A stretch of DNA of 64,000 bases. Origin: Azospirillaceae bacterium. Lineage in GTDB: Bacteria; Pseudomonadota; Alphaproteobacteria; Azospirillales; Azospirillaceae. The notes beneath the pieces are model-generated. The model was not told the DNA's origin. It saw only the letters and a program-made list of their open reading frames with translations, and ran no database searches. Position 1 is the first letter of the stretch. Each line of letters opens with the position of its first letter. The translations under genes were made by a program, and so were the position numbers. Below are positions 31,117-38,591 of the stretch, piece after piece. The stretch lies in assembly GCA_031291675.1 (NCBI GenBank), contig JARLIO010000034.1, positions 434,001-498,000 of the forward strand, written 5' to 3'.

Positions 31117-31917
31117 TCAGCCAAACAGGGCGTCGATATCGGCCTGCGAGATCATGCCTTTGTTCTTGTCTTCCTTGTGAGGGCCGTGCAACTCCAAATC
31201 ACCATCATGATGCGACACGTCGGGCGGTAGCGGCATGGACTCGAATTCACGGCGGTTCCAGACGCTCATCATGGCGTCGACGCGTTCCTCGATGAACGAC
31301 AGGGCACGCACCACCTTGGTGATCCGCTGTCCGGTCAGATCCTGGAAGTTGCAGGCCTCGAAAATTCGGACCACAATCTCGTTCATGTCGTTGACCCGCG
31401 ACGACTGATAGCCGTCCGGGAGCTGTGCCTTCAGCTCCGCGATGATTTCTTCCATTTCCTCGGCGCTGGCCATGATGACGTTCGTGGCATCTTCAGTCGC
31501 GGAAACGACAGCACTCAATTCTTCGGACGCCTGCTGGAACTTGTCCTCGTTGGCGAGAGGATGGCGCAAAGCCGCCATTTCGGCTTTGGTGGCCTTGATC
31601 CGACCGGCAATGTCCTCGATTTCGAGTTGGATGCTCTCGATCTGCGTCTTGTCCGTCGCCAGAAACCGGTCGAACTTCGACGACAGGTCGGCAATGGCCC
31701 GCAGGACCTCGCCATTGTCGGCCGGTGCGACGATGATCTGTGGCGGCGCAACGACCTCAGGCTGCGCAGCTTCGACGGGTACGGCACCGTTACCGGCCGG
31801 CCTCTGGCGCTTTTTGTACTGCAGCTCGGCCATGAACGGCCGGCGAGACTGGTCCACCATGTCCTTCAATCCTGTGCTGACATCTGTTTTCGTGTCGCGA
31901 GCGTGGCCATCAGGCAT
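31117..31917 (-). CDS. cheZ: CheZ-family protein phosphatase
   Basis: CheZ dephosphorylates CheY-P to end the motor-switching signal. The 266-aa protein has a long helical hairpin (residues ~70-160) and then the catalytic segment IFEACNFQDLTGQRITKVV. D193 and Q197 correspond to D143 and Q147 of E. coli CheZ, in the same FQDLTGQ motif. The C-terminal residues 256-266, ISQADIDALFG, resemble the CheY-tethering peptide of E. coli CheZ and the N-terminus of FliM (SQAEIDALL). A paralogue with many such motifs lies 163 nt upstream, followed by cheY in the 5' direction. Start 31917 is not certain because later starts exist. Confidence 0.86.
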   Translation of the reverse strand: MPDGHARDTKTDVSTGLKDMVDQSRRPFMAELQYKKRQRPAGNGAVPVEAAQPEVVAPPQIIVAPADNGEVLRAIADLSSKFDRFLATDKTQIESIQLEIEDIAGRIKATKAEMAALRHPLANEDKFQQASEELSAVVSATEDATNVIMASAEEMEEIIAELKAQLPDGYQSSRVNDMNEIVVRIFEACNFQDLTGQRITKVVRALSFIEERVDAMMSVWNRREFESMPLPPDVSHHDGDLELHGPHKEDKNKGMISQADIDALFG

Positions 31918-32080
31918 TCATCATACGGCCGAAACTTGCTGAATATATCGCAGAACTATTTCCGTTCCGATCACGACACCGATTTTTCACCGCGACGACG
32001 GCCAAAACCCAACCGGAGTGCCCCTCTGCGACCGTGAGGACCGGCCGCCGCACCGCCGTTTCCTCACCCTGGTGACACTC

Positions 32081-33538
32081 TCACCCAAACAGCGCGTCGA
32101 TCGCCGACTGGTCCAGCGCGGCCTTCGGCGCTGCGGCCGGCGCCGCCTTGGCTGCGGCTGCGGGCGGCGCGGCCGGCGGTGGTTTCGCCGCCGCGGCAGC
32201 GACGGGCCGGGGCGCCACGGCTGCCGGAACCGGTCTGGCCGGCGGCGGCGCCATCGGTCTTGCGGCCGCAGGCGGCGGGGCCGGTTTGGGCGCCACCGGC
32301 GGTGGAGCCGATCTGGCTACGGGGGGCGGCGGAGCCGGCCTTGGCGCCACGGGCGGCGACGCCGCTTTGGCCGGCGCCGGTGCCGCGAACATGGCATCAA
32401 TGTCGGATTGATCGACGGATTTCGATGGCGCCGAGGGCGCCGGGGACGCGAACAGCGCGTCGATGTCGGACTGACTCGCCGGTTTCGGCGGGGCCGCCGA
32501 GGCCGGAGCACTAAACAGGGCATCGATGTCGGACTGGCTCGCCGGCTTCGGCGGGGCCGCCGGGGCCGCCGGGGCCGGGGCACTGAACAGGGCATCGATG
32601 TCGGACTGGCTCGCCGGTTTCAACGGAACCGGGGCCGGGGCACTGAACAGGGCATCGATGTCGGACTGGCTCGCCGGTTTCAACGGAACCGGGGCCCCAA
32701 ACATCGAATCGATATCCGCCTGACTAGCATGGTGAGCCGGAGCGGCTTCCGGTTCCAAACTGGCCGGCGGCGCGACGACCGGCGGCGGTTCGGGCGCAGG
32801 CGGCTGGACCTTTGGTGCCGCGGGCGGGGTGTCGAACATGGCATCGACATCGCCCTGGGACACGCCTTTGCCGTCGGCCTGCGGGCCGTGAAGCAAATGC
32901 GCATCAGGCCGCCGATCGACGAAGTCCCCGATCATGGGCGAGGCATCGACGCCCTCGATGCCCCAGATAGCGATCATGGCGTTGATGCGCTGTTCGATAT
33001 AACGGAGCGCGTTGATGACCTTGCTGGTGCGCTGCCCGGTCAGATCCTGGAACGAACACGCGGTGAAGATCGACATCACCTCGTTTTCGATATCGGTACA
33101 AAGGATAGGGTCCGCCCCCGACGCCCGCAACCGATTGCCCAAATCCATCAATCGCTCGGCGGAATTGAGAATATCGAGACTGGCCCGTTCCGTCGAGCTG
33201 ACGATGGCGTCAAGCTCGTTGGTTGCGGATAGAAACTTGTTGCTGTCACTGTCAGGGGGCTGCAACGCGGCCACTTCCCGCCGCGCCTGCTCGATCGAAC
33301 CCGCCATTTCCAGCAGCTCGCGCCGCAGCATATCGATATGTCCGACCGATTGGCTCAGCTCGCGCTGCTGACGCAGCATGTGCTGGATCTGGTCGACCAT
33401 GCCACGGACTTCCTCGGTCGCGGCACCCTGCATGCGCCGGGCATAGCGTCGGAGGAACGCCCGCCCCTTGGCGGTACGTGTGATCGCCTCTTCAATACTT
33501 TCGTATTCGTCGTCGGAGAGCGACGCGGGCTTGTCCAC
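32081..33538 (-). CDS. CheZ-like phosphatase with an array of CheY-tethering-like motifs
   Basis: The 485-aa protein has two parts. Residues 1-220 form a CheZ-like helical domain; catalytic residues D165 and Q169 lie in SFQDLTGQR, followed by RYIEQRINAMI as in its neighbour. Residues 221-485 are a Pro/Ala-rich tail with eight copies of an SQxDIDALF motif: 226-235, 271-280, 289-298, 309-318, 333-342, 354-363, 375-384 and 475-485. The motif matches the FliM N-terminus and CheZ C-terminus that bind CheY. The 3' end abuts the cheY stop region by 3 nt (cheY is transcribed first). Inference: it could hold several CheY-P molecules or act as a phosphatase sink. Confidence 0.85.
   Translation of the reverse strand: MDKPASLSDDEYESIEEAITRTAKGRAFLRRYARRMQGAATEEVRGMVDQIQHMLRQQRELSQSVGHIDMLRRELLEMAGSIEQARREVAALQPPDSDSNKFLSATNELDAIVSSTERASLDILNSAERLMDLGNRLRASGADPILCTDIENEVMSIFTACSFQDLTGQRTSKVINALRYIEQRINAMIAIWGIEGVDASPMIGDFVDRRPDAHLLHGPQADGKGVSQGDVDAMFDTPPAAPKVQPPAPEPPPVVAPPASLEPEAAPAHHASQADIDSMFGAPVPLKPASQSDIDALFSAPAPVPLKPASQSDIDALFSAPAPAAPAAPPKPASQSDIDALFSAPASAAPPKPASQSDIDALFASPAPSAPSKSVDQSDIDAMFAAPAPAKAASPPVAPRPAPPPPVARSAPPPVAPKPAPPPAAARPMAPPPARPVPAAVAPRPVAAAAAKPPPAAPPAAAAKAAPAAAPKAALDQSAIDALFG
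32387..32728 (-). repeat. tandem coding repeats in the CheZ-like gene
   Basis: Six tandem units of about 54-72 nt encode the motifs at residues 271-384. Two neighbouring units are identical at DNA level: 32581-32636 equals 32641-32696, a 60-nt period. The others are near copies. Identity in DNA, not just in protein, points to recent slippage or unequal recombination. Confidence 0.85.
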
Positions 33539-33541
33539 CGA

Positions 33542-33907
33542 TCAGGTTCCCAAGACGGCCTGAATCTTCTGCTTCAGCGTATCGGCGTTGAACGGCTTGA
33601 CGATGTAGTTGTTCACACCGGCTTCCTTGGCGGCAACGACGTTCTCGGTCTTGCTCTCGGCCGTGACCATGATGAACGGGGTCGCATTCAGCTTGTTGTC
33701 GGCACGGATTTCCTTCAGGAGCTGCAACCCGGTCATCGGTTCCATGTTCCAGTCCGAAATGACCAAGCCGTATTTCGCTTCACGCAGCTTCTGCAGGGCA
33801 CTGACACCGTCGCCAGCCTCGTCGACATCGGTAAAACCGATTTGGGTCAACAGGTTTCTGACGATGCGCCGCATCGTGGCGTAGTCGTCGACAACCAGGA
33901 TCTTCAT
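33542..33907 (-). CDS. cheY: single-domain response regulator CheY
   Basis: CheY is phosphorylated by CheA and acts on the flagellar switch. The 121-aa receiver domain starts MKILVVDDYATMRRIV. D52 (SDWNM) is the phosphoacceptor, D7-D8 bind Mg, T82 (MVTAES) and K104 (YIVKPF) complete the active site, and Y101 is the aromatic switch residue. ATG 33907 has GGAG about 7 nt upstream in TGGAGAAAGTG, preferred to 33919. It is the first gene of the cheY/CheZ-like/cheZ cassette. A GTCGGAC/GTCCGAC inverted repeat at 33969-33988 lies in its upstream region. Confidence 0.95.
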   Translation of the reverse strand: MKILVVDDYATMRRIVRNLLTQIGFTDVDEAGDGVSALQKLREAKYGLVISDWNMEPMTGLQLLKEIRADNKLNATPFIMVTAESKTENVVAAKEAGVNNYIVKPFNADTLKQKIQAVLGT

Positions 33908-37316: not shown

Positions 37317-38591
37317 TCAGGGCGCTCCTTCCCCGGAGGTTGCGGCAACGGCACCGCCCGGGCCCGGCATCTGAAACACCCAATGACGCGGCACCTCATC
37401 GGCGGCGTCGAGCAGGCCCATGCGACGCAGCGTTTCCTGGCGCTGGCGCATCAGGCGCTGGGACAACGCGGCCTCGACCACCGCCCCGCCCAGCAATCGG
37501 CCCTGGTCGTCGTACAGCTTGCTCATCAGCATTTCGATCATTTTGGCGTCCTGCTGCGGGTCGCGCCGGTCCAGCGGATTGTCCTTGCGCAACTCCTGCT
37601 GCAAGCGATCGATCAGCACGATGCGGCACGATGGCGCCAACCCGGCACGGATCAGGGTTCCGATCCGCGCCAGACCCGGCGTCAATCCCGGGGTGTCCGG
37701 GGCCACCCGGCCATTCAGGAAATCCGCAAGCTGACACAGACCCGCGCCCAGGTGGGGCTGCGGACCGAGCAGATCCTTGACCATGTCGGCGGTCCCCAGA
37801 GCGTCGGCAACCACGGCTTCCATCAAGGTGCTGACCTCGGGCAATGCCACCTCACCGATCAGGCCAAGGGCAAACTCCATCTTGGCACCGATCGAATTGA
37901 AATGCTCGGTCATGTAATGGACGAACATCGCGGCCAGGGTGAAATCATGGCGTTCCGCCCCGACCTTGGCCCGCACCCGGCGGCTGACATATTCGAGATT
38001 GTCGAGCGCCAGCACCGGCAGGCCACGCCGCTCCGCGGCGAAATCCCGGACCCGGACCGAAATCTCGCGCGCCAAGCCATCGAGAAACCGCACGCGATCG
38101 CGCACCGGAATATCAAGTTCCTGAGCCTGGACCCGCGCGACCTGGAACAAGGCAGTCTGCAGCAGCATCCCGGTATCGGTCAGCTTGCGCACATAGGTCG
38201 GATGATGCAGCAGCTCCGTAACGGTGATCTGGTATTTTTCAAAAAACTGACGGAGCAGCCGGCCGAGCGTCATCCGGCTCGACAAATTGAACAAATCGTC
38301 AGCACATTGACACGGCCCGACAGCGGTCACGCGCCCCGAAATCGTCAGCGGCTTGTCCTTGACAAGGGGCCGATACTCGAGAAACACCTGGGCTTTGGTA
38401 AAAAACCCGGAGGACATGTGGCGTTCGCGAATGACCTTGACCGCTTCATGCCGTCCCTGAGCCAACAACGCGCGGGCGGCGGCGAGCGCATCCGCCTCGC
38501 TGCCCTTGACCACCTGTTCGATGCACCAACGCCCTTCAACCGAAACGTGAATTTCGTACTCGATGACGCGATTCTTGACCAAAGGATTCAT
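37317..38591 (-). CDS. conserved hypothetical protein
   Basis: I do not recognise a defined family for this 424-aa protein. It has an N-terminal beta-rich segment (VIEYEIHVSVEGRWCIEQVVKG, IRERHMSSGFFTKAQVFLEY) and then long helical stretches without signal peptide or membrane helices. The repetition of VKGSEADALAAARALLAQGRH suggests a small ligand- or DNA-binding-like domain near residues 28-50. Many Arg/Glu pairs suggest a soluble cytoplasmic role. A GGAG Shine-Dalgarno lies 8 nt before the ATG. It is on the same strand as uvrD upstream and prmA downstream, but with gaps of ~150 nt. It is probably a Rhodospirillales-specific protein; that is inference. Confidence 0.7.
   Translation of the reverse strand: MNPLVKNRVIEYEIHVSVEGRWCIEQVVKGSEADALAAARALLAQGRHEAVKVIRERHMSSGFFTKAQVFLEYRPLVKDKPLTISGRVTAVGPCQCADDLFNLSSRMTLGRLLRQFFEKYQITVTELLHHPTYVRKLTDTGMLLQTALFQVARVQAQELDIPVRDRVRFLDGLAREISVRVRDFAAERRGLPVLALDNLEYVSRRVRAKVGAERHDFTLAAMFVHYMTEHFNSIGAKMEFALGLIGEVALPEVSTLMEAVVADALGTADMVKDLLGPQPHLGAGLCQLADFLNGRVAPDTPGLTPGLARIGTLIRAGLAPSCRIVLIDRLQQELRKDNPLDRRDPQQDAKMIEMLMSKLYDDQGRLLGGAVVEAALSQRLMRQRQETLRRMGLLDAADEVPRHWVFQMPGPGGAVAATSGEGAP

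Follow-up and report, generated by a model that had tools for sequence, protein, structure and literature searches.

An array-type CheZ with eight FliM/CheZ-type motifs from an Azospirillaceae bacterium, and variation of motif number among its relatives

Genes and repeats at the array-type cheZ locus

The window analysed here, a stretch of 64,000 nucleotides from an Azospirillaceae bacterium, carries on its minus strand a cheY gene, a cheZ gene with an array of motifs in its tail (array-type cheZ), and a second cheZ downstream of it (Table 1). The array-type CheZ matches the Pfam CheZ family (PF04344) with an E value of 2.7e-8 and 34.4 bits, above the curated cut-off of 30.7, and D165 and Q169 are both found within FQDLTGQ, which confirms the CheZ-like domain with two catalytic residues that had been read from the letters alone, at the right coordinates though with no strand given. 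The Asp and the Gln of the FQD(L/I)TGQ segment we take to be the active-site residues of CheZ. In a nine-row alignment of array-type CheZ and its relatives the surroundings of D165 and Q169 are also invariant and the N-terminal region is conserved, and judging from the invariance at the two residues and around them catalysis seems to be kept. A role of these residues in the CheZ active site is described in the available part of PMC7750401. The NCBIfam CheZ equivalog NF008368 matches residues 149-231 only, and because its 25 bits lie below the cut-off of 257 we do not call the protein an equivalog of that family.

CheZ proteins typically have a long helical hairpin that pairs into a dimeric four-helix bundle. 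An AF2 model of the CheZ core (mean pLDDT 69.8, pTM 0.34) contains helices at residues 23-92, 99-140 and 144-192. Structure comparison with this model matched many unrelated, generic helical hairpins, and CheZ was absent among the best 50 structure matches listed. A plus-strand ORF at 32018-33232 was considered as the true frame and no support was found for it; the minus frame is favoured because many of the differences between motif copies are synonymous in that frame.

Table 1 Features of the array-type cheZ locus in the window.
Feature	Position	Strand	Remarks
cheY	33542..33907	minus	immediately upstream, 3 nt from the start of cheZ; Response_reg E 2.7e-30
Array-type cheZ	32081..33538	minus	485 aa, GTG start; ORF and translation
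CheZ domain match, residues 149-234	32837..33094	minus	includes most of motif 1; Pfam, 1kmi_Z alignment
Catalytic-type Asp165	33044..33046	minus	invariant in the nine-row alignment; FQDLTGQ aligned with 1kmi_Z
Catalytic-type Gln169	33032..33034	minus	invariant in the nine-row alignment; FQDLTGQ aligned with 1kmi_Z
Motif 1, SQGDVDAMF, residues 227-235	32834..32860	minus	aligned with the C-terminal helix of E. coli CheZ
Motif 2, SQADIDSMF, residues 272-280	32699..32725	minus	
Motif 3, SQSDIDALF, residues 290-298	32645..32671	minus	
Motif 4, SQSDIDALF, residues 310-318	32585..32611	minus	
Motif 5, SQSDIDALF, residues 334-342	32513..32539	minus	
Motif 6, SQSDIDALF, residues 355-363	32450..32476	minus	
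Motif 7, DQSDIDAMF, residues 376-384	32387..32413	minus	
Motif 8, DQSAIDALF, residues 476-484	32087..32113	minus	C-terminal; last motif is DQ[AS]AIDALF in 58/58 complete proteins
Five direct 63-nt DNA repeats	32373..32693	minus	carry motifs 3-7
Second cheZ	31117..31917	minus	266 aa, downstream of the array gene; Pfam CheZ E 6.7e-11; one C-terminal motif SQADIDALF at 31123-31149 (protein end SQADIDALFG)

The translation confirms that the Pro/Ala-rich tail of about 260 residues contains eight motifs of the SQxDIDALF type, with linkers of 36, 9, 11, 15, 12, 12 and 91 residues between successive motifs. The linker parts of the tail are probably disordered. At the DNA level the repeat copies at 32571-32633 and 32631-32693 are identical, and the copies are 63-71% like the reference copy. 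A chance origin of the motifs was rejected, as 20,000 shuffles of the tail gave a mean of 0.00065 motifs. When the 5.87-Mb genome was searched with the DNA pattern CARNNNGAYATHGAYNNNNTNTT, a stricter pattern outside which motifs 1 and 8 fall, there were seven exact matches, six in the array gene and one in the adjacent cheZ, and the reversed control of the pattern gave none.

The arrangement of the neighbouring genes recurs. The gene upstream of the array gene is cheY in 19 of the 21 loci examined, and 18 of 22 loci have a one-motif cheZ on the downstream side. One early set of loci was found partly by motif-based peptide patterns and is biased; the core-profile search of 82 genomes described below is less so, the last residues of the core nevertheless including motif 1. 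The window's own genome encodes five CheZ-like proteins (225, 305, 291, 266 and 485 residues) on three contigs (two, one and two proteins, respectively), so the array-type CheZ may not be the main phosphatase. By eye, each of the five shows one or more motif-like stretches beyond the core. Elsewhere in the window, a minus-strand ORF of 424 aa at 37317-38591 gave no Pfam match at E values up to 1 and no NCBIfam match up to 0.01.

Motif class, conservation and copy number

A search with a profile built from nine sequences, one from the window and the others from eight relatives, brought up E. coli CheZ (1kmi_Z) with an E value of 0.0019 and 20.9 bits, and the stretch LLNGPQ...SQDQVDDLLDS of 1kmi_Z aligns with the segment of array-type CheZ that ends in motif 1. 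Since motif 1 thus lies at the place of the known CheY-P-docking helix, the other motifs may be regarded as copies of the same kind. A FliM search of the genome found one protein, in which NQDEIDSLL aligns with SQAEIDALL of the solved FliM 8umd_C. On sequence grounds there is good support, from 1kmi_Z, FliM and the 57 tails analysed below, for assigning the motifs to the CheY-P-binding kind, as in the earlier interpretation. For another part of that interpretation, a bridge between CheY and the motor, no support was found here.

The partner encoded next door was compared with E. coli CheY, to which it aligns over 118 residues. Among the CheY residues that contact FliM, Y106, V108, F111 and K119 are identical in the two proteins, and the K92 and I95 of E. 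coli are replaced by T and V in the window. From these residues, the surface of the adjacent CheY looks able to receive the motifs. An AF2 model of a fused CheY-CheZ chain, read through the cheY stop and based on 16 alignment rows, was poor (mean pLDDT 52.6), with pLDDT values of about 37-55 in the CheY part, probably because the CheY rows of the alignment were nearly identical. Among the best 50 matches listed by Foldseek for this poorly modelled chain there were CheY structures and no CheZ.

When the core profile was run against the 82 genomes of the order, 61 of them, counting that of the window, proved to have a close orthologue. Three of these are cut by contig ends and were excluded, which leaves 58 complete proteins. 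This survey of homologues for motif number, as the sequence-only reading had proposed, gave 2 to 9 motifs per protein, distributed as 9 proteins with two motifs, 1 with three, 19 with four, 16 with five, 8 with six, 3 with seven, 1 with eight (the window) and 1 with nine. Hence 49 of the 58 have three or more motifs, and since the other 9 have just two, a long array is not essential. The first and the last motif are present in all 58, the first starting 61-66 residues after FQD, and it is the middle copies that vary in number. Among nine comparison paralogues (L136-L144) there are eight with two motifs and one with a single motif by the pattern used; a tenth (L145) is cut and was omitted from the tree. 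Three of the two-motif paralogues (L138, L140 and L141) fall on the close group's side of the core tree, and the limit of the orthologous group is therefore indistinct. One orthologue, L135 from G045, appears to be frame-shifted in its core (the profile match stops at 153 of 238, and its end branch is 10) and has a tail that keeps four motifs; it is included in the motif counts, the tree and the codon comparison, and left out of the leave-one-out set, hence the 57 tails. Searching viral contigs with the CheZ core yielded no relative, and on plasmids five records matched, covering 34-40% of the query, none of them reaching 80%.

Conservation within the motifs was quantified in the 57 tails (window included) by leaving out one motif position at a time, each test still demanding the remaining positions. 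Read in this way, Q and the second D were found in every case (198 of 198 and 259 of 259, respectively), F in 256 of 259 (the exceptions being two M and one L) and I or V in 259 of 260. The first D was found in 198 of 259, with A in 57, which is the residue of the last motif at that position. The motifs fall into three types, the first being mostly SQxDVDxMF, the middle ones mostly SQxDIDxMF or SQxDIDxLF, and the last DQxAIDALF. Outside the motifs the tails consist of 36% Pro, 32% Ala and 8% Lys, the linkers diverge, and the start-to-start spacing of middle copies is 16-48 residues, most often 21.

At the codon level, 181 pairs of middle copies from the same gene were compared. At the first D (position 3), which is left free by the pattern, there were 30 synonymous and 12 non-synonymous differences, against 54-89 non-synonymous differences at each of the six codons upstream of the motif. 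That no non-synonymous difference was counted at Q or at the second D is circular, since the pattern fixes those positions, and the codons directly after the motif (positions 9 and 11) also show few residue differences. Homologues in which the motifs decay and the rest is conserved were to count against the sequence-only reading; the opposite was found, with motifs kept and linkers and copy number changing.

The core tree, which has 67 sequences, requires a minimum of 22 changes in copy number, and there are identical cores with four versus five motifs (L084 and L092; L081 and L093, L094). We regard the array as real, and the case for it as stronger than the letters alone could show: its copies conserve the motif and differ in number within a genus. 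Compared as 51-nt units, the copies of the window gene are on average 73% like each other and at most 65% like those of other genes, although a single pair between the window and L099 reaches 76%, and with all 48 genes taken together there is little contrast (80% within versus 77% between genes). Because the window copies resemble each other more, and because five of them lie in 63-nt direct repeats of which two are identical, the data point to a local expansion of the window array, either independent or concerted.

Possible roles of the array

We propose that the single CheY-P-docking helix of a CheZ-type phosphatase has been multiplied. A helical core with the D/Q active site would be followed by a linker bearing eight docking helices, each of which would bind one CheY-P at the alpha4-beta5-alpha5 face. 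Owing to the linker, a captured CheY-P could then get to an active site, either that of the chain holding it or that of a neighbour. The chain could thus gather several CheY-P molecules and work through them, with stronger capture and steeper CheY-P removal as the outcome. We give this multi-tether reading, with several CheY-P captured by each CheZ chain and handed on to its active site, a probability of about 0.6, and the local phosphatase sink suggested from the sequence alone is the part of the earlier interpretation that fits best. What the sequences show is the gene, its domain and active-site residues, the motifs with their conservation and changing number, and the synteny; CheY-P binding by each copy, the stoichiometry, delivery to the active site, catalysis and the effect on signalling are what we infer. 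In E. coli CheZ the main affinity for CheY-P lies in the tethered helix and that of the active site is loose or weak, according to the available part of PMC1447658; with the tethered helix multiplied, more CheY-P would be held per chain. A Gaussian-chain estimate with an assumed persistence length of 0.4 or 0.8 nm places the motifs at an effective concentration of 0.26-17.9 mM at the core, from which even the last motif could deliver its CheY-P.

The same multiplicity might act between chains. CheY-P has been proposed to link E. coli CheZ dimers into oligomers of higher activity (PMC1447658, available part), and a dimer of the array-type CheZ would have sixteen docking helices, so that CheY-P connecting the helices of one dimer with a second dimer's active site could drive formation of a network or small condensate and act as a threshold-like off switch. 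If this were true, CheZ clusters would assemble as CheY-P rises and dissolve as it falls, and the steepness of the switch would be tuned in evolution by gain and loss of motifs; we consider this extension doubtful.

The array could instead mainly hold CheY-P, or cluster CheY and CheZ, perhaps at a pole, in competition with FliM and with catalysis being secondary. The motif class is common to FliM, the core sequence ACSFQ fits the AXXF(Y)Q motif, which is reported to control polar localisation of Azorhizobium CheZ (available parts of PMC8563088 and PMC7750401), and the recurrent one-motif cheZ downstream would also agree with such a buffer or scaffold. We nevertheless find it unlikely, since D165, Q169 and their surroundings are invariant, so that catalysis seems kept, and no motor-binding part was seen in the array-type CheZ. 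Less probable still is that slippage or unequal exchange expanded the repeats without any functional effect, leaving just the first and the last motif to work. The direct DNA repeats, two of the five being identical over 63 nt, the frequent changes in motif number, also between identical cores, and the low residue divergence directly after the motif are all consistent with neutral expansion. Set against this, the middle copies keep Q, D, I and F where the upstream codons diverge, and 49 of the 58 complete proteins retain at least one extra copy. As for the partner, the systematic differences between first, middle and last motifs could mean that the middle ones bind another receiver domain or a CheY paralogue instead of the CheY of the operon. 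This appears very improbable, given that the hydrophobic positions and the second acidic position are common to all three types and that cheY is the upstream gene in nearly all loci examined.

If the multi-tether reading is correct, the orthologues amount to naturally occurring versions of one enzyme that carry between 2 and 9 tethers, in some cases on identical catalytic cores, and the old question of tethered versus oligomeric cooperativity in CheZ becomes directly testable. Most array-type CheZ proteins seem to come from Azospirillum, a genus much used for plant growth promotion. In A. brasilense, a cheZ gene (AHNNBFGK_04641) rises with a benzoxazinoid, as given in the available part of PMC12421955.

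Arrays elsewhere and known systems

Among 385 genomes of the class, five of them from this order, the strict motif pattern had six or more matches in four genomes: that of the window (7), G436 (8), G359 (6) and G179 (6). These genome counts are complete; arrays were read only among the matches listed, and smaller ones are possible. In G436 (L177, minus strand) the pattern leads to a CheZ of a different type, FEACSFQDITGQRITKV, which has three SQDDIDALF motifs and scores 36.1 bits against NF008368 (cut-off 257); by eye, a degenerate fourth motif stands at the first position. A similar protein with three motifs is encoded in G359 (L178, minus strand), and the protein at the matches in G179 has two. 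The array-bearing paralogue of G436 and G359 comes from another alphaproteobacterial family. On the motor side, a planctomycete FliN (MAG contig JAJRPG010000097.1, L045:3980-4915, plus strand) has four DQxxIDxMF motifs before its FliMN_C domain (E 9e-23; TIGR02480 102 bits, cut-off 84.05). The ORFs around it look flagellar by eye. From the arrays in the other CheZ type and in the planctomycete FliN there seems to be more than one origin, on the side of the phosphatase as well as that of the motor, which suggests that motif number may tune both.

In the titles and abstract beginnings of the open-access papers searched we found no CheZ with a motif array, which could be noted elsewhere. With E. 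coli CheZ (1KMI chain Z) the array-type protein shares FQDLTGQ, LLNGPQ and the CheY-P-binding helix at the position of motif 1, but the E. coli protein of 214 residues ends with this one helix, whereas the array-type CheZ continues in its tail with eight motifs. The CheZ of another alphaproteobacterium, Azorhizobium caulinodans, is a subject of PMC7750401 and PMC8563088; according to the available parts, it has one C-terminal CheY-binding helix (residues 225-236; PMC7750401) in place of eight motifs. The two-motif CheZ paralogues of the same order (L136-L138, L140-L144) have, in common with the array-type CheZ, a motif that follows the core and a second at the C-terminus, and differ from it in being without the middle copies. 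Finally, the N-terminal CheY-binding segment of FliM belongs to the same motif class, with the difference that FliM, a motor protein, carries a single copy close to its N-terminus and the array-type CheZ eight copies on its tail.
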